This document shows, piece by piece, positions 9,660-38,517 of a stretch of 64,000 nucleotides of DNA. Numbering within the stretch: position 1 is the stretch's first letter; each line of letters starts with the position of its first letter. The stretch is from Schizochytrium sp. TIO01 (taxonomy: Eukaryota > Sar > Bigyra > Thraustochytrida > Thraustochytriidae): positions 4,345,040 through 4,409,039 of the forward strand of contig SMSO01000035.1 of NCBI GenBank assembly GCA_004764695.1. The letters are read 5' to 3'. Position numbers and translations under genes: made by a program. Under the pieces are notes generated by a model that saw only the letters and a list, made by a program, of their open reading frames with translations, did not search any database and was not told the origin of the DNA.

Positions 9660-11960
9660 TCACTCGAGCATCCTTAGAGCCTCTTTACAAATTGACAAAC
9701 GCGGATGCAGTTCGCTCGCTTCACGAACTACCTCCAGAGCTCCCAGGTCGATCAAAGTCTGCCTAGTTTGAAAATTTGACGCCAATTCTTTCAGTGCTGC
9801 GCATGCTTGTCTTTGCAGATCTGCGTTCGTTGAATGTGTGCGCATGGCATTCACGATATCCTCGCCCACGTTCAGATCTTGTCCCAGAATCTCTTTGTTG
9901 CGGTTATTTTCTGCAAGATTCCGTAGTGCTGTGCATGCGCATCTTTGCAGTTCTGCGTCTGTTGGATGTGCGCGCATGGCATTCACGATATCCTCGCCCA
10001 CGTTCAGATCTTGTCCCAGAATCACTTTGTTGCGGTAATTAATAGCAAGATTTGCTAGTGCTGCGCATGCTTTTGTTTGCACTTGTGCGTTCGTTTGATG
10101 TGCGCGCATGGTATTCACGATATCCTCGCCCACGTTCAGATCTTGTCCCAGAATCTCTTTGTTGCGGTTATTGGCAGCAAGATTCCGTAGTGCTCCGCAT
10201 GCGTATCTTTGCAGTTCTGCGTTCGTTGGATGTGCGCGCATGGCATTCACGATATCCTCGCCCACGTTCAGATCTTGTCCCAGAATCACTTCGTTGCGGT
10301 TATTGGCAGCAAGATTTGCTAGTGCTGCGCATGCTTGTCTTTGCAGTTCTGCGTTCGTTGGATGTGCGCGCATGGCATTCACGATATCCTCGCCCACGTT
10401 CAGATCTTGTCCCAGAATCTCTTGGTTGCGGTTATTAATAGCAAGATTCCGTAGTGCTCCGCATGCGTATCTTTGCAGTTCTGCGTCTGTTGGATGTGCG
10501 CGCATGGCATTCACGATATCCTCGCCCACGTTCAGATCTTGTCCCAGAATCTCTTGGTTGCGGTTATTAACAGCAAGATTCCATAGTGCTGCGCATGCGT
10601 ATCTTTGCAGTTCTGCGTCTGTTGGATGTGCGCGCATGGCATTCACGATATCCTCGCCCACGTTCAGATCTTGTCCCAGAATCTCTTTGTTGCGGTTATT
10701 AACAGCAAGATTCCATAGTGCTGCGCATGCGTATCTTTGCAGTTCTGCGTCTGTTGGATGTGCGCGCATGGCATTCACGATATCCTCGCCCACGTTCAGA
10801 TCTTGTCCCAGAATCTCTTTGTTGCGGTTATTTTCTGCAAGATTCCGTAGTGCTGCGCATGCTTCTGTTTGCAGTTCTGCGTTCGTTGGATGTGCGCGCA
10901 TGGCATTCACGATATCCTCGCCAACGTTCAGATCTTGTCCCAGAATCTCTTTCTTGCGGTTATTAACAGCAAGAGTCCAAAGTGCTCCGCATGCGTATGT
11001 TTGCAGTTCTGCGTTCGTTGGATGAGCGCGCATGGAATGCACGATATCCTCGCCAACGTTCAGATCTTGTCCCAGAATCTCTTCATTCCAGTCATTGACA
11101 GCAAGACCCCAAAGTGCTGCGCATGCTTTTGTTTGCAGTTCTGCGTTCGTTGGATGTGCGCGCATAGCATTCACGATATCCTCGCCCACGTTCAGATCTT
11201 GTCCCAGAATCTTTCGGTTGCGGTTATTAATAGCAAGATTTGCTAGTGCTGCGCATGCGTATCTTTGCAGATCTGCGTTCGTTGGATGTGCGCGCATGGC
11301 ATTCACGATATCCTCGCCAACGTTCAGATCTTGTCCCAGAATCACTTTGTTGCGGTTATTAACAGCAAGACTCCAAAGTGCTCCGCATGCGTATCTTTGC
11401 AGTTCTGCGTTCGTTGGATGAGCGCGCATGGAATGCACGATATCCTCGCCAACGTTCAGATCTTGTCCCAGAATCTCTTCATTCCGGTCATTGACAGCAA
11501 GATTCCAAAGTGCTCTGCATGCTTGAGTTTGCACTTGTGCGTTCGTTAGATGTGCGCGCATGGAATTCGCGATATCCTCGCCCACGTTCAGATCTTGTCC
11601 CAGAATCTCTTTGTTGCGGTTATTTTCTGCAAGATTCCGTAGTGCTGCGCATGCGTATCTTTGCAGTTCTGCGTCTGTTGGATGTGCGCGCATGGCATTC
11701 ACGATATCCTCGCCCACGTTCAGATCTTGTCCCAGAATCTCTTGGTTGCGGTTATTAACAGCAATATTCCGTAGTGCTGCGCATGCGTATCTTTGCAGAT
11801 CTGCGTTCGTTGGATGTGCGCGCATGGCATTCACGATATCCTCGCCCACGTTCAGATCTTGTCCCAGAATCTCTTTGTTGCGGTCATTGGCAGCAAGATT
11901 CCGTAGTGCTGCGCATGCGTATCTTTGCAGTTCTACGTTCGTTGGATGTGCGCGCAGCAT
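9660..11960 (-). pseudogene. C-terminal half of the kinase-ARM protein, out of frame with the first half
   Basis: An uninterrupted 766-residue frame of about 17 armadillo-type repeats of 44 residues (132 bp), ending with a diverged cap from about 9660 to 9780 and a TGA stop. The repeat core reads like NLAxNNRNKEILGQDLNVGE followed by DIVNAMRAHPTNAELQ. It is the direct continuation of the kinase-ARM frame at 12014-15931 but sits in another frame, because the repeat unit at about 11950-12070 carries small deletions. Its first ATG is inside a repeat and is not a credible start. Either the gene is truncated here, or the deletions are assembly errors in a repeat array, or RNA processing restores the frame. 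The repeats are cleaner here than near the kinase domain, which suggests recent homogenisation by recombination. Confidence 0.7.
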
Positions 11961-13975
11961 TCGCGATATCCTCGCCCACGTTCAGATCTTGTCCCAGAAT
12001 CTCTTGGTTGCGGCTATATTGAAAGCAAGTTTCCAATAGAGCTCGCATGCTTTGTTTGCACTTGTGCGTTCGTTCGATGTGCGCGCATAGCATTCACGAT
12101 ATCCTCGCCCACGTTCAGATCTTGTCCCAGAATCTTTCGGTTGCGATCATTAACAGCAAGACTCCAAAGTGCTCCGCATGCTTTTGTTTGCAGTTCTGCG
12201 TTCGTTGGATGTGTGCGCATGGCATTCACGATATCCTCGCCCACGTTCAGATCTTGTCCCAGAATCTCTTGGTTGCGGTTATTAACAGCAAGACTCCAAA
12301 GTGCTCTGCATGCTTTTGTTTGCAGTTCTGCGTTCGTTGGATGTGTGCGCATGGCATTCACGATATCCTCGCCCACGTTCAGATCTTGTCCCAGAATCTC
12401 TTTGTTGCGGCTATTATTGAAAGCAAGAATTGCTAGTGCTGCGCATGCTTGAGTTTGCAATTCTGCGTTTGTTGGATGTGCGCTCATGGCATTCACGATG
12501 TGTTTGCCCGCGTTCAGATCTTGTCCCAGAATCTCTTGGTTGCGGTTATTTTCTGCAAGATTTGCTAGTGCTCCGCATGCTTTTGTTTGCAGTTCTGCGT
12601 TCGTTGGATGTGTGCGCATGGCATTCACGATATCCTCGCCCACGTTCAGATCTTGTCCCAGAATCTCTTTGTTGCGGTCATTTTCTGCAAGATGTTGCAG
12701 TGCTGCGCATGCTTGTGTTTGCAGTTCTGCGTTTGTTAGATGTGCACTCATGGCATTCACAATATTCTCACCCACGTTCAGATCTTGGACCAGAATCTCT
12801 TGGTTGCGGTTATTAACAGCAAGATTCCGTAATGCTGTGCATGCTTGAGTTTGCAGTTCTGCGCTCGTTGGATGTGCGAGCATGGCATTCACAATATCCT
12901 CGCCCGCGTTCAAATCTTGTCCCAGAATCTCTTTGTTGCGGTAATTAACAGCAAGATTTGCTAGTGCTCCGCATGCTTGTGTTTGCAGTTCTGCGTTCGT
13001 TAGATGCGCGAGCATGGCATTCACAATATCCTCGCCCGCGTTCAAATCTTGTCCCAGAATCTCTTTGTTGCGGTAATTAACAGCAAGATTTGCTAGTGCT
13101 CCGCATGCTTGTGTTTGCAGTTCTGCGTTCGTTAGATGTGCGTGCATGGCATTCACGATATCCTCACCCGCGTTCAGATTTTGTCCCAAAATCTTTTGGT
13201 TGCGGTCATTGGCAGCAAGATTTGCTAGTGCTCCGCATGCGTTTGTTTGCAGTTCTGCGTTCGTTGGATGTGCGCGCATGGCATTCACGATATTCTCGCC
13301 CACGTTCAGATCTTGTCCAAGAATCTCTTTGTTGCGGTAATTGGCAGCAAGATCCCAAAGTGCTCTGCATGCTTGTGTTTGCACTCCTGCGTTCGTTAGA
13401 TGTGCGCGCATGGCATTCACGATATATTTTCCCACGTTCAGATCTTGTCCTAGAATCTCTTTGTTGCGGTCATTTTCTGCAAGATTTGCTAGTGCTGTGC
13501 ATGCTTGAGTTTGCAGTTCTGCGTTTGTTAGATGTGCGTGCATGGCATTCACGATGTATTCGCCCACGTTCAGATTTTGTCCCAGAATCTCTTTGTTGCG
13601 GTCATTGGTAGCAAGATTCCGTAGTGCTCCGCATGCGTATGTTTGCAGTTCTGCGTTTGTTAGATGTGCGCGCATGGTATTCACGATATCCTCGCCCACG
13701 CGTAGCTCCTGTGCCAGAAACTTTGAGTTACGATCATTGATAGCAAGTTTCCATAGCGCGCCACAAGCTTGAGTTTGCAATTCTGCGCTTGTTGGATGGG
13801 TGCTCATAGCATTCACAATGTCCTCGCCCACATTCAGCTCCTGTCCTAGAATCTCAGCATTGTGATCATTACACACAATAATTCGTAGCGCTTTGCATGC
13901 CTGGATCTGCACCCCCGCGTCTCTTGGATGCGCACGCATGGCTCTCACGATGGCATCACCTGAAAGCAGTTCTTG
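9765..13975 (-). repeat. 132-bp tandem coding repeats, about 33 units
   Basis: The sequence CGTTCAGATCTTGTCCCAGA and its neighbours recur every 132 bp on the plus strand, coding on the minus strand for one 44-residue armadillo-like repeat per unit. About 14-16 units lie before the frame break and 17 after. Units near 13.9 kb are most diverged, while those at 9.8-12 kb are nearly identical. One unit near 12.41 kb has an extra codon, and the one at about 11950-12070 has three small deletions. Confidence 0.92.
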
Positions 13976-15931
13976 ACACAAGCTTTCTCGGTTACCTTCT
14001 CCCAAGCGAGCCAGCATCGAAATACAGGCACAAGCGGCCTCTTGGACCATGGCTTCATCTAAACCATCCTCCATAACACGAAGAACGAGAGAACCTAGAT
14101 CGTAGACTTTAAAAGCCACCTCCATGTACTCTAACGAAGCATCGTCAGAAAATGCAAATGTTAGCGTCCACAAAGCCTCACACATTACCCCAGCATCGGT
14201 GTGATCATCCTCGAGCACCAGTTTTAATAAAACCAGAATTCCACGTGAACGAACGTTGGCACGCGCCTGATTTCCCTCATCACCAGCCAGAAGCTCCTTT
14301 TCCAGGATACTGTGCAAATCCTTCAACGTTTGCAAAAGTAGGTCTCGCTTGCCGCGCTCGCCAAGATCATAAACAAGACTCCTAAGTGTTTCTTCATCAG
14401 CAAACTGTATCATGGACTGTTTACGATTCCGCCTCGAAAAGCTAGCGACAAGCCCACGAATAATACGGGTCGAACGTCGGATCACGCCATGGGACTCAAA
14501 ACTCTGGAGAATTTCCCGTGCGCTAGGACGTTCCTCTGGGTCATGTGTCCAGCACCTTTCCATCATACGAACAATCCATAATTTGATTGGGATTTCGTCA
14601 GACATAACCGGTCGCTCTCCCGTAAGAACAACCCTGACAAACTCGTCACGCCCACACTGTAGGTGCGAATATGGACGTTCTTTATTATAAACCTCCCAAA
14701 TTACCATCCCGAGAGCGTATATATCTGCTTTGGTCGTCCAGCGAGATGGGGGCTGTAGTGTCTCGGGTGCCATGTAAAGTACTGGCTCGGGCTCACACTC
14801 TGAGTTTATCATAATCATGCTAGAATCTATCTGCTCTCCAAGTCCAAAATCTGATAGCTTGACTCGTCCTAGATCATGACTAAGTAGGACATGCGCTGGT
14901 CTGAGATCGCCATGAATCACATTTTGGCTATGAAGATAGCGCAGACCACGAGATATGCCTCGTACGATAGTCTCTTTGTCGTCCAGATTGGGTCTCGTGA
15001 CTACCGATTCCTCATATAATAGATCCTTCAGAGATAGATCGCACTGGTCCAGGATCAAATGGAAGCGATTTTGTAGAATGCATGTCCCAAGAAGACAGAC
15101 AATATTCTTGTGCTCCAGCCCTTTCCAACACTGAGCCTGGAAAATCAGTTCTTTTTGCTCGCCAAATTGAAGTCGACCAGGAATAGGACGAACTCTCTTT
15201 ACTGCAACTGCAACATCTTTGCCTAATTTTTCGTGCAATATTCCTGCCAGTACTTGTCCGAAGGAGCCTTCGCCGATGATATGTTCGGGGAATAGTACCT
15301 CAACCATATCTTCTGATAGGGTTGCCATCTCTGTCTCTTGAGTTTCTTCTAAGAATTTCAAGAATTGTTGAACTACCCATCTCTGATTTCGAGTGCCTGC
15401 GTTACCAACTTGGAATTCTAGAAGGGAGACTTCAGGATGCTGATTCAACAGTGCCAATATAGCTCCTACCTGGTCATGGCCTTGACTTTGATATTTCTTG
15501 AGCATCTCCTCAAGCTTGGCATGATCCTCTTCGGCATCAATTACATCCATTTCTTGAGCAGATTTCTCAGGTGACGGTAAGACAAACTTTATCCTTCCTG
15601 CCTTTACTAGAGTTTTCAATCGTTCTTCGGCTTGTTCGAGAGCTTGAGCCGCGCGTCTGTTATCAATGAGTCTTAGAATGAAGGATACCTCGCTGTCCGT
15701 CGGTTGGAAGTGCTCACGCAGCAGAGTAAGGATCCCGCGCATGCTAGATTCAACCTGGATGAAGTTCACATCTGCATTTTCCATGGGCTCAAAGAAAATT
15801 GCCAGCTCACTGAAGACATTCTGAAGGTATGCAGCTCGCTGTTTGCAAGTTTCTGGATTTTGAAGGAGCGTCGCACCTTCCCGTGTGAGCTGCAGCGCAC
15901 AAGCAAAGCTCGTCGTGACGTCTTGAGGCAT
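12014..15931 (-). CDS. protein kinase fused to armadillo-type repeats
   Basis: A 1305-residue frame. Residues 1-210 are helical and unassigned. The kinase domain spans about 212-470: Gly loop GEGSFGQV (about 217), VAVK lysine (about 243), catalytic loop HGDLRPAHVLL (about 340), DFG in SDFGLG (about 360) and APE in MAPE (about 386). The catalytic loop departs from HRDLKxxN: Arg is Gly and the metal-binding Asn is His, so activity may be weak or lost. From about 560 the chain becomes armadillo/HEAT-like, then regular 44-residue repeats. The frame ends early, at TAG 12014, in a damaged repeat; about 17 further repeats continue in another frame. ARM repeats bind proteins through a superhelical groove, so the kinase is probably recruited by a ligand or partner. 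The ATG at 15931 opens the frame. Substrate unknown. Confidence 0.85.
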   Translation of the reverse strand: MPQDVTTSFACALQLTREGATLLQNPETCKQRAAYLQNVFSELAIFFEPMENADVNFIQVESSMRGILTLLREHFQPTDSEVSFILRLIDNRRAAQALEQAEERLKTLVKAGRIKFVLPSPEKSAQEMDVIDAEEDHAKLEEMLKKYQSQGHDQVGAILALLNQHPEVSLLEFQVGNAGTRNQRWVVQQFLKFLEETQETEMATLSEDMVEVLFPEHIIGEGSFGQVLAGILHEKLGKDVAVAVKRVRPIPGRLQFGEQKELIFQAQCWKGLEHKNIVCLLGTCILQNRFHLILDQCDLSLKDLLYEESVVTRPNLDDKETIVRGISRGLRYLHSQNVIHGDLRPAHVLLSHDLGRVKLSDFGLGEQIDSSMIMINSECEPEPVLYMAPETLQPPSRWTTKADIYALGMVIWEVYNKERPYSHLQCGRDEFVRVVLTGERPVMSDEIPIKLWIVRMMERCWTHDPEERPSAREILQSFESHGVIRRSTRIIRGLVASFSRRNRKQSMIQFADEETLRSLVYDLGERGKRDLLLQTLKDLHSILEKELLAGDEGNQARANVRSRGILVLLKLVLEDDHTDAGVMCEALWTLTFAFSDDASLEYMEVAFKVYDLGSLVLRVMEDGLDEAMVQEAACACISMLARLGEGNRESLCQELLSGDAIVRAMRAHPRDAGVQIQACKALRIIVCNDHNAEILGQELNVGEDIVNAMSTHPTSAELQTQACGALWKLAINDRNSKFLAQELRVGEDIVNTMRAHLTNAELQTYACGALRNLATNDRNKEILGQNLNVGEYIVNAMHAHLTNAELQTQACTALANLAENDRNKEILGQDLNVGKYIVNAMRAHLTNAGVQTQACRALWDLAANYRNKEILGQDLNVGENIVNAMRAHPTNAELQTNACGALANLAANDRNQKILGQNLNAGEDIVNAMHAHLTNAELQTQACGALANLAVNYRNKEILGQDLNAGEDIVNAMLAHLTNAELQTQACGALANLAVNYRNKEILGQDLNAGEDIVNAMLAHPTSAELQTQACTALRNLAVNNRNQEILVQDLNVGENIVNAMSAHLTNAELQTQACAALQHLAENDRNKEILGQDLNVGEDIVNAMRTHPTNAELQTKACGALANLAENNRNQEILGQDLNAGKHIVNAMSAHPTNAELQTQACAALAILAFNNSRNKEILGQDLNVGEDIVNAMRTHPTNAELQTKACRALWSLAVNNRNQEILGQDLNVGEDIVNAMRTHPTNAELQTKACGALWSLAVNDRNRKILGQDLNVGEDIVNAMRAHRTNAQVQTKHASSIGNLLSI

Positions 15932-22598: not shown

Positions 22599-24446
22599 TC
22601 ATGAGCAACTATGCGGCCTCTCGCCGCCATTGAGGAGATGCCAGGATGTTTTAGTGTCGCGGCGTGGGTTCACATAACCTCTCACCATGCTCCACGCCTT
22701 GGTTTGGCGCTTTGTCTCATCCATGGCAAACTGGTGAACTTGGTTAGTAAAGTTCTGAATACCGACCGAGTGACGCAAGTAGTTTTGGATTTGACTGCAG
22801 ATCTCCAGATCGACAGCAGACTCCTGATCCGGATCACAAAGGTGGTTGTTGCATCTAGCCCGCATGTGATAGAGGGCAAGTGCGCGACCACCATGCGCAG
22901 AGTATTGAAGGTACTCGTCTTTGGTGAGCTCTTCGAGATCAACACCAACATTGTGCTTTGATTTCTCTCGAACGATGTAAGCCTTTCCACGAAAGGTGGT
23001 CCATCCGTAAAAGAGGTTTGTGTAGGGCCATGAGGAGCGCTCGGCATCAACAGCACGCTTACCCTCTTGCTGCGCGGTGTAAGAGTAGCGAAAGAAGACC
23101 TGAAGGACGGAGTTAACCTCTTCTTTCATCTCGAGGATAATATATCCATACTTTTGAGATGCGTAGCGTCCTTTGATAAGGATGTAAAATCTATTGAGTC
23201 CAATCGATCCGGTGCCGCTACCTTCCTTACGGGCCACAGCGACAACTTTGTAGAACTTCCCATCATTGGGGAACTTGGCAAGCGCTGCGACACCATGGTA
23301 TAAGTAAGCATCGATGGATTCTTGGAACTCAGGGATCAGCTCTGTAGGTAGTGGGGTGATCTGGTCGCTCTGAATGAACTGATCAGTCTTCAGGTCGATC
23401 ATCATCTTCTTCTCGAGAAACTTGAGGGTGTTCTTAGTGGTCTCAGTGTCTCTGGACTTCAGAAAGAGTGTCTGAATGAGCGGTGCGTGCTCGTTCACAT
23501 AAGATCCATTCTCCGTAAAGCGCTCCGAGTTGGTAAAGTCACAGTTTGGGTGGTCCACGAATGTTGATACATACGCCTCCACAAAAGCCCGAGCCGAGTT
23601 TGAGTCATCCTCCTCGGCCCATGCTCTCGATCTCGAACCCAGCGCGAAACCTGTTGCGCCGCGCTTTACGTCCCAGCTAAACGGTGTTGTAAACGACTGG
23701 TCAAAGTCATTCACACCCCATACTAGCGCACCATTTGCCTGAACCATGACACCAAAGTTCTCAGGGTGACAATCACCGTTTGAATACACGCGCGGCATAC
23801 TGATGCGCTTTGCGGCGAATTGAGGGTCCGAACACATCATGTTGTAGTCGAACAGGGCCGCGGCACCGCGGAAGAAGACAAAAACTGTGTTGTCGGCTAG
23901 CTTTTCGATCTTACTGTTCACCGCCTCCAGGCTTTTTCCACCCTGTAGTGCCGCAGCGCAGTTCTCAATCTGGAATGCTGTGCGGATTCGAGGCATGCCG
24001 CGGTGGTCACACTCCACAAGTGGCAGGTACTGGCCGGAACACCAACCTGAACACAGTGTTCCGTTCAGCCGTGTATGGTTATTCCCACGGTCACCTGCGC
24101 CATACGCGTCGATTCCTTCGTAAGCATCTAAGTCTACCTGGTCCGCGTCCCGCGTGGCAAGAGGCGCTTTTGAAGATGGAGACGAAGCTGATGCTTTCGA
24201 ATCTGCCGCAGAGGACGACGGCGACGGTGAGGAGGAGGAGGCCTGCATCTCGACGGCCAGCTCAGCGAAGCCGTCGGAGAGGGCATCAGGAGCAATCCCG
24301 CTGTCACGCTGGACAACGGCGGATAAAGTCGAGGGAGGCTGCGAGCTGATGGCGAGGCATGCCAGCAGCACCATCACAGCGAGACCAGCCACCGTCAGGC
24401 TTCGCGAGGACCGCGCAGAGCCCACGGAGGCATAGGATCCCGACAT
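22599..24446 (-). CDS. membrane-anchored DUF2252 family protein
   Basis: A 615-residue protein. The DUF2252 core covers about residues 150-560 and shows the family's conserved blocks: FVFFRGAAA, SNGDCHPENFG and GVNDFDQSFTTPFSWDVKR. DUF2252 is distantly related to kinase/phosphotransferase folds, and the GDxHxxN and NDFD motifs resemble their catalytic and metal-binding loops; its substrate is unknown. A hydrophobic segment at about residues 19-35, after a short basic-Ser start, acts as a signal anchor or signal peptide, so the domain probably faces the lumen or outside. The chosen start is the ATG at 24446; the frame is open 87 nt further up but only through a TTG. The gene is GC-richer than its surroundings. 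The family is common in bacteria and scattered in eukaryotes. Confidence 0.8.
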   Translation of the reverse strand: MSGSYASVGSARSSRSLTVAGLAVMVLLACLAISSQPPSTLSAVVQRDSGIAPDALSDGFAELAVEMQASSSSPSPSSSAADSKASASSPSSKAPLATRDADQVDLDAYEGIDAYGAGDRGNNHTRLNGTLCSGWCSGQYLPLVECDHRGMPRIRTAFQIENCAAALQGGKSLEAVNSKIEKLADNTVFVFFRGAAALFDYNMMCSDPQFAAKRISMPRVYSNGDCHPENFGVMVQANGALVWGVNDFDQSFTTPFSWDVKRGATGFALGSRSRAWAEEDDSNSARAFVEAYVSTFVDHPNCDFTNSERFTENGSYVNEHAPLIQTLFLKSRDTETTKNTLKFLEKKMMIDLKTDQFIQSDQITPLPTELIPEFQESIDAYLYHGVAALAKFPNDGKFYKVVAVARKEGSGTGSIGLNRFYILIKGRYASQKYGYIILEMKEEVNSVLQVFFRYSYTAQQEGKRAVDAERSSWPYTNLFYGWTTFRGKAYIVREKSKHNVGVDLEELTKDEYLQYSAHGGRALALYHMRARCNNHLCDPDQESAVDLEICSQIQNYLRHSVGIQNFTNQVHQFAMDETKRQTKAWSMVRGYVNPRRDTKTSWHLLNGGERPHSCS

Positions 24447-26418
24447 GGCGTCCAACTTGGTACGATCCCGAACTGTCGCGGCCCGTCTTCGCGCGAGCCT
24501 GCCCCTGATTCGGTACTGAGCGCCAAGATTCAATCCCAGTCAATCCTCGAATTCCAAGGAATCAAATCATGGAAGCCAAAGGCCTCTCGCACTTAAGGTG
24601 GATGGCGCCCTATTTCCATGCAAAGTGGGCACTCCGAACCATGCACCATATTACGATCCCAGAGCTTTTGGGAGCACACTTTCATGGCAGCGCTTCAGAA
24701 CTATAAACCCTGTCAAGAGGAGCATAGGGCAGACTAGGGAGGGCGTGGACACTGCATTGGCACCTTAATGAGGATTGGGAAGCTGTGGAGTACTACTGTG
24801 CCAAGCGAGAGCAGGGGAGCTTGAGAAGCTGGCGTCGAGGCGTTGAAATGCCTGGCAACGTAGCAAGCAAAGCAAATGCATCAACGCGTTATGATGGCTG
24901 TTGAAGCATGACGTGTGGGTTGAGGGGTTGTGGACTGTTGCAAGTGCTTCGTGAAGGACTTAAATGCGGGAACGCTTGACCAATTTGGGAAGAGTACCTG
25001 GCTTGGATGTGACTCTGTTCTACGCATGCCAGGCAGAAGATCTGCTACCTATGCACCTTAAGTGTGCAAGGTGATTGACAAGCTCACCTATTACATGTTA
25101 AAATGTAGTGCTGTGCCCATTTGGGAAAGGCCACCAGCTTTCTGCAACGGGGTCTCTCTCTCTCATGGTCTGGATCACAAATTCATTCTTTGGTTTTGAG
25201 AAACTTTAGTGCATCCTTCCCTGGAAATGGAGGCAAATGGCAGTCTAAACCGCGACATGTAAGAGTGGAGATATTGGAGTCTGGAGATTCTATCTAGTCT
25301 CTACCTGGGACATGTTAGCCACGATCCAGAAGTTTACAGTCTTGATGGGAAAGTGGTTGCTTTGCTATCTATTTTCATAGCTGTTGACTTTAAAATGAGG
25401 CTAGAAGATGAGATTGCTCCTAGGTAAAACACTATTGATAGATAGGAGAAAGGGGGTATCTACTATACTTTAGACGCACCATTAATTTAAGTGTGAATGA
25501 GAGACTTGTACCTCTGTTGACGGAATTATACGCCCAACAAGATAATTTGACTCATTCAAGACCTGTCTCTATTCAAGACCGAGGCGACAATTTACAAGAG
25601 GAGTAGTGCATGCATGCCCTCCTTCGTTTTTATTCAAGATATTTGCCAGCATCGGCTAAGATATGTCATCAACACTAGTTCAGAGCATAGTTCTTAAAAT
25701 ACTAAGCGTGAGCTCGCTTTCAATTTTACGCTTTGACCGAGTTTAATTTAGGGACACATCACTTTCTTGAGAAGTGATGAGTTACTCGACATCAAGTGTC
25801 TTGGCTTCCAAATCGCGCGAAACACTTCTCGTGCATCATGGTCACGGTAAACTAGGCGTGTCTTCATTTTCTTAACTCTTAAGATTCCCAACGAAGGATT
25901 CCAAGAGCAATGGCAATTGCCAAATTTACCTGATAGATCTAAAACACCTCTGTAAATCACAATCCTGCAAAGAATGCCTCTCTCGACAGCGCAGAAGCCA
26001 CAATGTACTACGCCATCCATTCTTCCCGTTAGGTCATCCTAGGAAGGAGCAGAACAGAGAACAACGAAAGAACTGCTTATCATGATAAGCGCCTTCAGGA
26101 AACCTAGGAGGTAGGTAGCATTAGTAGTAGTGCCTAGTTCAGTAGTAGCTGTATATTGATTAATATGTGCGGCTTTTTCTTCTCTCTTCTTCTTCGGTGT
26201 TCTTATTTTCTTCTTTTTCTTGCACGGTTCGCGCTGACCCTCATCGCAGACCTGCAATCGGCATCTTGGAGCGCATCGTGCATCTGGCGAAACTCTCTCT
26301 GGGAGTCGCTTGCGAGCTTTGCGGGGTTTGTTGATAACGACTGTCTGGTTGGACTGTCTGAGCGTGAGACTCTCCGGTTCGGTGACTGAGATTGAGCATT
26401 TGGAGCATCGATCACATC
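24447..26418. other. intergenic region, divergent promoters
   Basis: Separates the divergent DUF2252 and SEC14-like genes. An open frame on the minus strand at 25748-26020 starts with ATG but has no recognisable domain and is not called. A TAGGAGGTAGGTAGCATTAG element at about 26104 lies some 315 bp before the SEC14-like start. Confidence 0.45.
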
Positions 26419-32360: not shown

Positions 32361-34460
32361 ATGGCGCCTGCGGAGACCGGCACGGCGAAGGAGACTTCGA
32401 ATGGACACTGTGCAGCGAAGACAAGCGATGATGAAAGCGACGATAAACAAAACAAACGAAGCGCTGGCGATGAAGGGGAAGTGATGGTGTTGGATTTGAC
32501 ATCAGACGAGGCAAAACAGCTGATGAAGGTAGCGAGTTCATCGGAGTCTCCGGCTCCGATTACAAGATTGGCCTCCTCATCTTCGGGTTCGCCGATATCA
32601 GCATCTGAGGAAAGCCTTGCATCATGTGGAGTGGATGAAGACATACTGAGCGAACGGGACTTTGATAAGATATTTTCTTTTTTGCGGGAGAAGGAAGGAT
32701 GGATTGCAGTAGAGGACGCCAAGATGGGTTTAGTTTATATCCGTCCATCAAACATAGTAAAACAGATTGGCTTCAAGGGCAAGCTTCACAAGCTTCACGC
32801 AAACTTGGACTACTTCACCAGTAAACAGAAAGTTGTTGATTGGGTGAGTTCTAGGGAGAACATGCTCATTGGCTTTGCAGCTTACGAATCGTTGTGTTCC
32901 TTAAGCAATTCTCAGACTCTATCGACTTCAACTGCGCCGGCACTACTCTACTCACCAGATCTTGTAGAAGATATAATTTCTAATACTTCAACACAAACCA
33001 ATGCAAGTCCATCTACACAAACATCTCAATCACCCGATCTCCTAGAAAACTCGCAAAAACGCAAAGCAGAGTCGGCAAAGAATGACACTGCGATTCGAAA
33101 AGGCAAGCGCAAATCGATTGACCTTGCAGAAAGTTCTGGGAATGACCCAGGCAGTGATATAGATACCCTATTTGTCGAAAAGGAGAGTGATTCATCTCTC
33201 ACGACTCTAGCCTCATTAGCCATGAATATTGAGCACGATAAAGAGTCTGTATCGCGTGAAAGCCATCACTCTAGCACAAGCTCGAGCTCTGACACTCTAC
33301 GAGGTCTTTCAGATCTTGAACATCGGCATTTTGAAAGTGAAAAGGACTATCAGGCATCATCTAGGTCTAGGTCCCGCAAAAAAGCATCTGCTCGCTTCAC
33401 TGTGATGCAAGACAAGTTTGCAAAAGAAATCTCTTGGGAAAATGAAACAGTTTTGGACATGCGAGACCAAAATCAAAAAAGACTTAGTTACGAAGGCTGG
33501 AACATCTGGTTAGACAAAACTTTAGATGCTTTGGGTGGATGGAAGGCTGTGGAATGCTCATCTGTGCGTTTAGGGTCAAATGACTTCAACCGTGAAAGTG
33601 TCTGCAGCAACAGGGCCTCTACGAAGCAATTTCGGGCTCAGTACGGTCGCGCGAATCCACATCTTGTGCAAACATGTATTCGAGAGGCCAAAATCACAGA
33701 AAATGACAAATTCATTGACATTGGTTCTGGAATTGGGCAAGTAGTTTTCCAAGTTGCATCTTGCGTGGGCTGTCCAAGTATTGGAATCGAATTGCTTAAA
33801 GAACGCCACGGCACCGCTGTGGCACTCAAACGCCTGCACGACAAATTTTGCGAGGATCATGGAATTCTCTCTGGCGCAACCAAATTTTTTTTTGATGACT
33901 TTACACGGCCCGATCGACGCGATCTACTCAAAAGCGCAACAGTATTCTTTGTAAATAATGCACAAGGTACATTCGGTGTACGATGTGTCGAAGCAGGCAC
34001 AATGACACTTGATATGCACGTTGCTGCAATCGCTCGTCGAGCAATGATAGGATCTCGATTCATTTGCTTTGATCCAATTTATGAACTTGAATGTGAAGAG
34101 CTGTTTGCGGCTTTCCGTGTCCGTAGGTTTCGCACCCTGCAATCTGCGACAGACTGGTCAGCAGATCCCCTAGAAATTACCATCTATGAGAAGATGTTAA
34201 ACACATGGACTTGCCCAAGGTGTACCTTCGTGAATGAACTGACGGATCCACTAGGCGAACCATTCTATTCATGCGGTGCGTGTAGCCAAGACCCGCATGG
34301 TATGCAACGTGAAAGCTACTCAACCCGTTCGAAAAGAACTAGCGTTCGCCTTGGTCTTCAGTGTAGCAATAAGCCTATCAAAAAAGTGGTTGACAATAAT
34401 AGAAGAACACCAAACGTCAAAGCTTCGTCAGCCTCTGACGATCCCATTGTCCTCAACTAA
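32361..34460 (+). CDS. DOT1: DOT1-type histone H3K79 methyltransferase with C-terminal zinc finger
   Basis: A 699-residue protein. The DOT1 domain lies at about residues 370-610. The SAM-binding motif FIDIGSGIGQVVFQVA (about 450) matches the DLGSGVGQVV motif of DOT1, and FFVNNAQGTF (about 528) matches its FVNN block. DOT1 methylates lysine 79 on the core of histone H3 in nucleosomes. At about 617-645 there is a RanBP2-type zinc finger: Cys pairs CPRC and CGAC around a short loop, a fold that often binds ubiquitin or RNA. An N-terminal module at about 103-165 (FLREKEGWIAVEDAKMG, LHKLHANLDYF) recurs in the style of small unnamed protist domains. The rest is Ser/Asp/Lys-rich and includes a basic patch near 245. 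The ATG at 32361 opens the frame. No intron. The DOT1 call is firm; the zinc-finger role is inferred. Confidence 0.88.
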   Translation: MAPAETGTAKETSNGHCAAKTSDDESDDKQNKRSAGDEGEVMVLDLTSDEAKQLMKVASSSESPAPITRLASSSSGSPISASEESLASCGVDEDILSERDFDKIFSFLREKEGWIAVEDAKMGLVYIRPSNIVKQIGFKGKLHKLHANLDYFTSKQKVVDWVSSRENMLIGFAAYESLCSLSNSQTLSTSTAPALLYSPDLVEDIISNTSTQTNASPSTQTSQSPDLLENSQKRKAESAKNDTAIRKGKRKSIDLAESSGNDPGSDIDTLFVEKESDSSLTTLASLAMNIEHDKESVSRESHHSSTSSSSDTLRGLSDLEHRHFESEKDYQASSRSRSRKKASARFTVMQDKFAKEISWENETVLDMRDQNQKRLSYEGWNIWLDKTLDALGGWKAVECSSVRLGSNDFNRESVCSNRASTKQFRAQYGRANPHLVQTCIREAKITENDKFIDIGSGIGQVVFQVASCVGCPSIGIELLKERHGTAVALKRLHDKFCEDHGILSGATKFFFDDFTRPDRRDLLKSATVFFVNNAQGTFGVRCVEAGTMTLDMHVAAIARRAMIGSRFICFDPIYELECEELFAAFRVRRFRTLQSATDWSADPLEITIYEKMLNTWTCPRCTFVNELTDPLGEPFYSCGACSQDPHGMQRESYSTRSKRTSVRLGLQCSNKPIKKVVDNNRRTPNVKASSASDDPIVLN

Positions 34461-35880: not shown

Positions 35881-38517
35881 ATGGGCGGCGACACGCAGCA
35901 GGATGCTGTGGCAGATTGGGAGCAGTGTAAGGAGAATGCGATGCCAATCAAACGAGGACGCGATGTGAAAAAACTTCAGCCTCTCGGTGGTAAACGTGAT
36001 ATCTCAAGTCGCAAGGACAAGCTTGAGCGTGAGCGTGAGTCCTTTGAGGAGGCCTTGGTCTCCGCAACCAGCGACGGTGACATGGAGGACCCTCTAGCGG
36101 TCTGGATCAAGTACATTAAATGGCTTCAAGACAACTTCCCTTCTGGTGACACCGAGCTCCTTGCGCTTCTCGAGCGATGTACCCGAGAGTTCAAGGACGA
36201 CGAGCGGTATCGCAACAACGAAAAGTATCTCAAAGTCTGGATCGGCTATGCAGACCGCCTCCACAACCCTACAATGGTTTTCAAGTACCTTCGCGAAAAC
36301 AAGATTGGCGACAAGCTTGCACTCTACTATGTTGCAACTGCATGGGCTGCGGAGCACCGTGGGAATTTCTCCATCGCCGACAAGGCCTACACTGTTGGGC
36401 TTGAGAAAAAGGCCGCGCCACTAGAGTTGCTGAAGAAGCGGCAGCGCGAATTTCAACGCCGCATGAGCCGGCGCTGGCTAGACCAGGCTGAGAAAGAACG
36501 CAATGGCGAAGTCGACCCCGACCAAGATGAACAGAGAGCAGACGCCGAGGCATCTAGAGCGAGGTCTTTGCAGCCTATCTCCAGGAGCGAAGCAGCTTCG
36601 ATGCATAGACCGATCGGAAACTCAAGAAGAACAGAAATGATGCATCCGAATGTCTCGGGACGTGCAGTCCTTGGAGGAAATTCGAACTCCAACGAGACGA
36701 ATGCTCAAAAAGATAAGGCTTCGCGATTTGAGGTGTTTGAGCAGAGGTCTGCACAGACAGAACCGTGGCGCAAAGACGATTGGGGCGACGAGAATGACAA
36801 CGATGAGGGCAACGATGATGAAAATCGACGAGGCACAGCCTGGAAGAACCTTGCGGGAGTCAAGGAACTCCAGAAAGAGAACAGCATTGACCCGGCACCG
36901 TGGACCCATCAAGGATTTGGACCTGGTACTGTGGCACCGAGGCGACAGGAACGTACACGAGGACAAGACGGAAGTGAGGAAGGAGAGCAAACGGCGTTTG
37001 ATGTATATGTAGAGGAAGGAGCCGGAGGCATTCGGTCCCCGCGTGCGATAGAGAAAGGAGAGTCCAGCGCAGGAGGACTCAAGATGCGATCGAAGGTTGA
37101 TGAGTCTGAGACGGAGATGCTCATGAAGAAACCTCTTCAGAACTTTGGCAAAGAACGCGCTCCACAGACGACTCGCACTCCTGCTGTCAAGAGCAAACCC
37201 TCTGCTGTTCCTGGCGAAAAGCTACCTGTATTAAGTGCTGTGAAGTCAGAAAGGGGCGCTGAGAGGGAGCGCGCATGCCCTGAGGAAAAGAAACAATCGA
37301 ACTCACAATCGCAATTGCAGTCGATGGGGGAGCGAACCCCGGCGCAAGGCAACTCTAATGCTACAGCACCAAACGGTTTGGACCGAGCTGACCAGGAAGA
37401 CATGACGATTAATACTCGACTTGCGCTGGATGACATGTTTGAAATGTTTGGGTCCCCAAGTATGAAGTCTGGTTCTGATGAAAAACAGAAAAAGAGTGTC
37501 GGAGTGCCTGCAGTCTCAGTATCTACTGTTGACACTCACAACGAAGACAGTAGTGATGATGAGAATGACGATGATGAGAGAAACTGTAGCCGTGGAGGAA
37601 GCGACAATCAGTCTCGCAACAGTGGCGGAGCGGGTGTACCATTTTCCATCTTTAACGCTGAGGAATCTCCAGTGCCAAAGCACGAATCCTCAAAGCCTTC
37701 TAAGCCCTTTAGTGTTTTTGACAACACGGACGAGGGAGACCTTGACGTAGTAAAGGATGAACCTAGACCATCCAAACCTTTCAGTATCTTTGGTGCGGAA
37801 GATGAAACCGAAGCCCCCAGCAAGGCCGCTGCCAAGCCATTCAGTATCTTTGGTGCAGAAGATGAAACTGAAGCCCCCAGCAAGGCCGCTGCCAAACCAT
37901 TCAGTATCTTTGGTGCGCAGGATGATGTTAATGAGGAAGATGAGCAAAGCAACCGCATTGGCGGCTCTTCGGCAGCAACAAAACTAATGTTTAAAGATGA
38001 TAGTGAAGATGATGAGAGTCCTTCTCTTCTGGGTGGTGGTATCACAACTCGTAAGAAGCCCTTTTCAATTTTTCAAAGCGATTCCCCGTCTAAGCACAAA
38101 GAGGATGCGCCTAAGGCGCGCAAACCATTTCAGATGTTTGGTGATGATGACGATGAGGATGACGCACCGGTCGTAAGTACTGGTGGTCGTAAGCCTTTTA
38201 GCATTTTTGCGGAGTCGTCAGATGATGACAGCACTATGTCTGCGTCTCGGAATAAGTCAGCCTCAAGCAAACCCTTTTCCATCTTTGGTGATAGCGAAGA
38301 TGCTGAGGAAATTAAAGGTGCATCCTCCAGAGGAGACTCCAAGGCGCGCAAACCCTTCAGTATCTTTAGCGGAGACGATGCGCACGATTCAGAAAACTCT
38401 GCATCTGGAGCTCACGATGACTCGACCTTATCGTTTGCTCCGCTTGAAGCTATTCTCGAGGCAAACGGCGAAACAGACGAGTCTGTGATGTCTTCTATGT
38501 CCCGAACATATAATTAA
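35881..38517 (+). CDS. MAD3: MAD3/BUBR1-like spindle checkpoint protein with an array of ABBA-like motifs
   Basis: An 878-residue protein without a kinase domain, so MAD3 type. A first KEN box is at residues 17-19, in the usual place before the TPR-like Mad3/BUB1 domain (about 45-200; DPLAVWIKYIKWLQDNFPSG, YLKVWIGYAD). A second KEN box is at 332-334, followed by a canonical ABBA motif FDVYVE at 373-378. A conserved TINTRLALDDMFEMFGSP block lies near 508-525. The mitotic checkpoint complex uses KEN and ABBA motifs to hold Cdc20 and block the APC/C. The C-terminal third is unusual: ten copies of a PFSIF-type motif followed by acidic residues, with Phe at 588, 610, 634, 654, 674, 728, 750, 773, 799 and 826. 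These resemble Fx[ILV][FHY]x[DE]. No clear Bub3-binding GLEBS motif was seen. The frame starts at ATG 35881; no intron. Confidence 0.9.
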   Translation: MGGDTQQDAVADWEQCKENAMPIKRGRDVKKLQPLGGKRDISSRKDKLERERESFEEALVSATSDGDMEDPLAVWIKYIKWLQDNFPSGDTELLALLERCTREFKDDERYRNNEKYLKVWIGYADRLHNPTMVFKYLRENKIGDKLALYYVATAWAAEHRGNFSIADKAYTVGLEKKAAPLELLKKRQREFQRRMSRRWLDQAEKERNGEVDPDQDEQRADAEASRARSLQPISRSEAASMHRPIGNSRRTEMMHPNVSGRAVLGGNSNSNETNAQKDKASRFEVFEQRSAQTEPWRKDDWGDENDNDEGNDDENRRGTAWKNLAGVKELQKENSIDPAPWTHQGFGPGTVAPRRQERTRGQDGSEEGEQTAFDVYVEEGAGGIRSPRAIEKGESSAGGLKMRSKVDESETEMLMKKPLQNFGKERAPQTTRTPAVKSKPSAVPGEKLPVLSAVKSERGAERERACPEEKKQSNSQSQLQSMGERTPAQGNSNATAPNGLDRADQEDMTINTRLALDDMFEMFGSPSMKSGSDEKQKKSVGVPAVSVSTVDTHNEDSSDDENDDDERNCSRGGSDNQSRNSGGAGVPFSIFNAEESPVPKHESSKPSKPFSVFDNTDEGDLDVVKDEPRPSKPFSIFGAEDETEAPSKAAAKPFSIFGAEDETEAPSKAAAKPFSIFGAQDDVNEEDEQSNRIGGSSAATKLMFKDDSEDDESPSLLGGGITTRKKPFSIFQSDSPSKHKEDAPKARKPFQMFGDDDDEDDAPVVSTGGRKPFSIFAESSDDDSTMSASRNKSASSKPFSIFGDSEDAEEIKGASSRGDSKARKPFSIFSGDDAHDSENSASGAHDDSTLSFAPLEAILEANGETDESVMSSMSRTYN

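Follow-up and report, generated by a model that had tools for sequence, protein, structure and literature searches.

A Mad3/BubR1-like protein of Schizochytrium with ten repeated ABBA-like motifs, a predicted multivalent tether for Cdc20

Tromer et al. (2016, PMC5204127) described repeat arrays of ABBA motifs in MAD proteins from stramenopiles, basidiomycetes and Physcomitrella, and we found no functional test of such an array in the literature. The human motif most similar to the array described here is a single one of BUBR1, ABBA-528 or ABBA3, of which the peptide binds Cdc20 more strongly than ABBA1/2 and which recruits Cdc20 to kinetochores (PMC5179498), although arrest depends on it little or not at all (PMC5179498, PMC5204127). 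The published ABBA consensus is degenerate, and joint mutation of positions 3, 4 and 6 abolished the binding of human ABBA peptides (PMC5179498).

The window (the whole stretch of 64,000 nucleotides that was analysed) carries a gene with the layout of this family. The main features upstream of the repeats are the following.

35881..38517, + strand: Mad3/BubR1-like gene, single exon, 878 aa, without kinase domain (ORF, Pfam and PDB matches)
35929..35937, + strand: KEN1, residues 17-19, within DWEQCKENAMPIKRGR, matched in the alignment to KEN1 of human BUBR1 (EWELSKENVQPLRQGR) and to S. pombe Mad3
36031..36402, + strand: Mad3/BUB1 region I TPR domain, residues 51-174 (Pfam PF08311)
36661..36687, + strand: probable D-box RAVLGGNSN (residues 261-269), RxxLxxxxN, between TPR and ABBA1 (regular expression; assigned from consensus and position)
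36727..36744, + strand: ABBA1 FEVFEQ, residues 283-288 (motif search; placement relative to KEN2)
36874..36891, + strand: KEN2 KENSID, residues 332-337, with W321 and W341 on either side (motif search; paired tryptophans as in PMC5204127)
36997..37014, + strand: ABBA2 FDVYVE, residues 373-378 (motif search)
37438..37455, + strand: isolated ABBA-like FEMFGS, residues 520-525, outside the array (motif search)

The ORF is intronless, and an in-frame TGA closely precedes its ATG. Its sole Pfam match is the Mad3/BUB1 region I TPR domain (PF08311, E 5.8e-37, 126.8 bits against a cut-off of 31.4), and among solved structures it is closest to human BUBR1 and S. pombe Mad3, with an alignment that covers the KEN1 helix-turn region and the TPR (residues ~12 to ~225). 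Given this domain match and these best PDB relatives, the 878-aa protein is by its sequence of the Mad3/BubR1 spindle-checkpoint type. KEN1 lies upstream of the TPR domain, and the protein sides with MAD rather than BUB in that a kinase match is absent; Pfam found no kinase domain in the ORF, and no ORF of at least 80 aa follows directly downstream on the + strand. The GLEBS motif serves Bub3 binding and is optional for MAD proteins. A search with PF08171 returned zero GLEBS matches in Mad3 or in the rest of the genome, a profile that divergent GLEBS motifs can escape.

The original prediction had named the gene MAD3/BUBR1, a call borne out by the TPR and KEN matches, and the KEN1, TPR, KEN2 and canonical ABBA motif FDVYVE that it listed are all present according to Pfam, the PDB alignment and the motif search. 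It had omitted ABBA1 FEVFEQ, the D-box RAVLGGNSN, the tryptophans W321 and W341 and the isolated FEMFGS at 520. With these the ABBA1-W-KEN2-W-ABBA2 cassette is complete (FEVFEQ 283, W321, KEN 332, W341, FDVYVE 373); FEVFEQ is non-canonical, as is ABBA1 in human. The ABBA motifs lie 49 and 41 residues from KEN2, which is longer than in human, where we take the distances to be ~32 and ~36 on the basis of the residue numbers of PMC5179498 and an assumed position of the human KEN2. The paired tryptophans around KEN2 are a described signature, and ABBA-KEN2 spacing was found to be very variable across species by Tromer et al. (PMC5204127); its conservation was stressed by Di Fiore et al. (PMC5179498).

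What sets the protein apart is its C-terminal part, in which a motif search located ten, and only ten, instances of PF[SQ][IVM]F (residues 587, 609, 633, 653, 673, 727, 749, 772, 798 and 825).

37639..37653, + strand: array copy 1, VPFSIFNAEES (motif search; the PDB alignment shows the same VPFSIF in segment 521-533 of human BUBR1)
37705..37719, + strand: array copy 2, KPFSVFDNTDE (motif search)
37777..37791, + strand: array copy 3, KPFSIFGAEDE, in the 60-bp tandem duplication (motif search, TRF)
37837..37851, + strand: array copy 4, KPFSIFGAEDE, in the 60-bp tandem duplication (motif search, TRF)
37897..37911, + strand: array copy 5, KPFSIFGAQDD, in the 60-bp tandem duplication (motif search, TRF)
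37981..37992, + strand: possible decayed copy, KLMF(KDD) (our interpretation)
38059..38073, + strand: array copy 6, KPFSIFQSDSP (motif search)
38125..38139, + strand: array copy 7, KPFQMFGDDDD, position 6 acidic (motif search)
38194..38208, + strand: array copy 8, KPFSIFAESSD, position 6 acidic (motif search)
38272..38286, + strand: array copy 9, KPFSIFGDSED, position 6 acidic (motif search)
38353..38367, + strand: array copy 10, KPFSIFSGDDA (motif search)

The cores span residues 587-829 at spacings of 22, 24, 20, 20, 54, 22, 23, 26 and 27, eight of the nine thus falling between 20 and 27 residues, which confirms the predicted number and regularity of the motifs. Such a count is far from what composition would give, as shuffling the entire protein 20,000 times yielded a mean of 0.0006 and a maximum of one. 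Near the centre of the one wide gap of 54 residues lies KLMFKDD (701-707), possibly a decayed copy. The proline and both phenylalanines of the motif are unvarying in all ten copies, and outside the cores the 318-residue tail contains two Phe, one Tyr and no Trp, next to 67 acidic residues and 54 Ser/Thr. This is as expected for a disordered tether carrying hydrophobic stickers, where the presumed disorder is read from the composition.

The fit to the ABBA consensus is graded. When Fx[ILV][FHY]x[DE] is relaxed to allow Met at position 3, three copies comply (FQMFGD, FSIFAE and FSIFGD). These are copies 7, 8 and 9, to which the acid at position 6 is confined, so that it is absent in seven of the ten. 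The first acid stands at position 7 in half of the copies (1, 3, 4, 6 and 10), whereas copies 2 and 5 have none at either position. The earlier statement that some motifs fit the consensus and that others carry the acid one place later therefore holds for FSIFGD, FSIFAE and the five shifted copies, but not for copies 2 and 5. Since only three copies have the position-6 acid, the copies probably differ in affinity, and some may be weak.

Copies 3 to 5 form a 60-bp tandem duplication (TRF 37772-37925, 91% matches), which by its similarity is recent, and only one of them was included in a comparison between eight copies. Synonymous differences approached saturation in the core as well as in the flanks (pS 0.75-0.83), while non-synonymous differences amounted to 0.17 in the six-residue core versus 0.62-0.65 in the flanks. 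The resulting pN/pS was 0.21 for the core and 0.79 and 0.87 for the flanks, values that derive from small counts and presume descent of the copies from one unit. Across copies, Pro is encoded by three codons, the first Phe by both of its codons and Ser by both families (TCN and AGY). Saturated pS together with a low core pN/pS points to selection at the protein level that holds the cores. Hence the cores are under purifying selection and not merely young, with linkers that drift.

The array also seems to be a singular feature of this genome. A degenerate DNA pattern covering the codons of K-P-F-S-[IV]-F, whose Ser codon also admits some Cys, Thr and Trp codons, hit 17 sites in the 64-Mb genome, eight in the Mad3 gene (all in the array) and nine elsewhere. 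The latter are single and lie in short frames without acidic context, and as the reversed control pattern gave 14 sites, their number is at chance level. The DNA pattern thus revealed no further array in the genome, and the tail used as protein query matched itself alone; no relatives of the Mad3 protein were found in viral_contigs.

Other loci merit a brief record. At 9660-15931 of the window (- strand) a protein kinase is followed by a long array of ~42-residue armadillo-like repeats (ILGQDLNVGEDIVNAMRAHPTNAELQ...), in which two reading-frame changes at ~11.9-12.05 kb split the array into two ORFs; either the locus is a pseudogene or the near-identical repeats were misassembled. A single ORF at 32361-34460 (+ strand) joins a DOT1-like methyltransferase (PF08123, E 4e-22) to a weak C-terminal match to an NZF-type zinc finger, to our knowledge an unusual combination. 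The gene at 22599-24533 (- strand) encodes a DUF2252 protein (PF10009, E 8e-58); the family has been described from bacteria and lies here in a eukaryotic chromosome. Elsewhere in the genome (G000 C4:608161-617209), a PfaA-type PUFA synthase with tandem repeated internal matches occupies two open frames (1031 and 2172 aa) that part near the repeated middle, owing to an intron, to a frameshift or to faulty assembly. Its presence, the genome size of 64 Mb and a GC content of about 45% suggest a thraustochytrid (Labyrinthulomycetes, stramenopiles).

If the motifs are of the ABBA type, their receptor should be recognizable in the same genome. One Cdc20 (L003) and one Cdh1 (L004) exceed the family cut-off with full-length matches; a third match over the cut-off, a 1132-aa WD40-repeat protein, was discarded as it reaches the threshold merely by summing neighbours. 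Compared with human Cdc20 at the eight ABBA-pocket positions that could be placed, the Cdc20 has kept Y240, L261, R262, W276, I280, V295 and R296 and carries Y279H. The human counterparts of L217, W233, V252 and R253 were assigned by a mapping of our own. These four residues come from the list of ABBA-pocket residues in PMC9357983, which also has a His at the 279-equivalent of Arabidopsis CDC20. The same His is found in yeast Cdh1 (WNNHVL), which binds the ABBA motif of Acm1 in structure 4BH6. At the equivalents of 279 and 280 the Cdh1 of the organism has N/Q (WTSNQL) and human Cdh1 has E/Q (WNAEQL), the very residues that are brought into Cdc20 by the mutation Y279E/I280Q. The pocket positions were taken from the list in PMC9357983 and from the human Cdc20 pocket mutants R262S and Y279E/I280Q (printed Y179E), the second of which lowers ABBA binding (PMC5179498). 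As the Cdh1 of this organism shares with human Cdh1 the Gln at the I280 position, we predict that Cdc20, and not Cdh1, is the likely receptor of the array.

An ABBA motif is thus the best reading of the repeats, and they most likely serve to grip Cdc20. The ABBA likeness that had been proposed from the consensus gains from three sides: the identity of VPFSIF to the human ABBA-528 core, the purifying selection on the cores and the conserved ABBA pocket of the Cdc20. On these grounds we consider it probable that the protein is a Mad3/BubR1 whose array acts as a multivalent tether for Cdc20, with Cdc20 rather than Cdh1 as its predicted receptor. KEN1, the TPR domain, the D-box and the ABBA1-W-KEN2-W-ABBA2 cassette, which elsewhere assemble the mitotic checkpoint complex (MCC) and lock it onto the APC/C, would do the same here. 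Docking of each array motif would take place on the WD40 propeller of Cdc20, where a groove separates blades 2 and 3; motifs with a position-6 acid are expected to bind best, and the array as a whole would raise the local concentration of Cdc20 and its rate of rebinding around Mad3. It could engage MCC-bound and APC/C-bound Cdc20 together, or capture extra Cdc20 molecules. Such an array need not strengthen the checkpoint, considering that ABBA-528 adds little to human arrest; it could serve recruitment, buffering or silencing besides inhibition.

The array may be meant for recruitment to the kinetochore or for silencing, as was proposed for human ABBA-528/ABBA3, instead of for inhibition of the APC/C. 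The array motifs are closer to ABBA-528 (PFSIFDE) than to ABBA1/2, and ABBA-528, unlike ABBA1/2, is needed for the recruitment of Cdc20 to kinetochores (PMC5179498). Moreover, ABBA3 may act in silencing, and the class 'ABBA-other' co-segregates with kinetochore features (PMC5204127). However, with no GLEBS found by PF08171 in Mad3 or the genome, a route to the kinetochore is not evident, and we regard this role as a tentative possibility.

Alternatively, one Mad3 might hold several, up to about ten, Cdc20 molecules, so that few checkpoint proteins titrate much Cdc20. Every motif is a complete short peptide, the ten cores are under purifying selection, and disordered linkers of 20-27 residues would, if extended, be long enough to separate the propellers. 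Nevertheless, the non-consensus position of the acid in seven of the ten copies suggests weak sites, which favours avidity or rebinding, and the recent duplication of copies 3-5 suggests a drifting copy number. Such stoichiometric capture seems unlikely to us, and the array is explained just as well by a raised local avidity towards a single Cdc20 or a pair of them.

MAD1, a MAD2-type HORMA protein (211 aa) and MPS1 are encoded in the genome, in favour of the main reading. A second HORMA gene (L015/L016, G000 C34:183979-184799) has nine stop codons in its main matched frame, by introns or as a pseudogene, and is perhaps of the meiotic HORMAD or Rev7 type. The search for Mad3/BUB1 region I revealed no second MadBub gene in the genome. 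A candidate BUB1 (L002, G000 C31:7168336-7171581) was rejected as it proved to be MPS1/TTK, with a TPR remnant and a kinase nearest to human TTK; its N-terminal TPR matches region I with E 3.6e-5, below the cut-off, a score consistent with shared TPR ancestry of MPS1 and MadBub. Neither was a BUB1-like kinase found in the genome with the human BUB1 kinase domain as query, which returned only general kinases of 25-30% identity and which a divergent or intron-split gene could escape; the best match (L036) is an ordinary protein kinase. As no second MadBub, GLEBS or BUB1-like kinase was found, a MAD-only repertoire is suggested, although divergent or intron-split genes could be missed. That in such a checkpoint, with a sole Mad3/Bub1 protein and without Bub1 kinase or GLEBS, the ten-site array replaces the kinetochore Bub scaffold in concentrating or titrating Cdc20 is an improbable extension.

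The repeats might also bind another partner, such as a phosphatase, a kinase, SUMO or a pore protein, and resemble ABBA by chance. The position-6 acid is missing in most copies, and hydrophobic-plus-acidic motifs of other kinds exist, SUMO-interacting motifs being an example. Yet the core P-F-S-I-F recurs unchanged in a known ABBA motif of the orthologous protein, and the genome's Cdc20 has kept its pocket. None of the array motifs fits the B56 pattern LxxIxE, and docking of B56 was dismissed in view of LxxIxE matches that fall outside the array. A partner other than Cdc20 is therefore quite improbable. Finally, the tandem repeats might have expanded neutrally and without function in a disordered tail, for which the recent 60-bp duplication of copies 3-5 speaks. 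This is very improbable, since the cores of the other copies have a pN/pS of 0.21, equally old linkers reach about 0.8, and Ser has been retained across two codon families.

We thus return to the multivalent Cdc20 tether and its place among known proteins. The original prediction had presented the array as an unusual checkpoint design. As ABBA arrays in stramenopile, basidiomycete and moss MADs were published in 2016, its central idea was already an existing observation, and the gene is a further example of these arrays, not a new kind of system. New are the present instance, the signature of selection that it bears, the prediction of a Cdc20-specific array and a genome in which a sole Mad3/Bub1-type protein was found. 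By itself the array calls for no revision of how the checkpoint works. It does offer an unusually clean case for asking whether the strength of a checkpoint follows the number of docking sites for Cdc20: the ten sites are near-identical and graded in the position of the acid, the pocket of the one Cdc20 is conserved, and that of the single Cdh1 looks disabled.

With S. pombe Mad3 the protein shares a KEN1-TPR region aligned over residues 14-205, and neither has a kinase domain; we know of no C-terminal ABBA array in S. pombe Mad3. It resembles human BUBR1 (BUB1B) in its TPR domain, KEN1, KEN2, ABBA1/2 and a PFSIF core identical to that of ABBA-528. However, human BUBR1 combines one motif of the ABBA-528 type with a GLEBS and a pseudokinase, neither of which was found in the Mad3 described here, and, in contrast to ABBA-528, seven of the ten array copies lack the position-6 acid. 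Closest are the MAD proteins of PMC5204127, which likewise combine KEN1 and ABBA1-KEN2-ABBA2 with a repeat array of additional ABBA motifs, and to which the present protein adds ten regular C-terminal copies documented together with a selection test.
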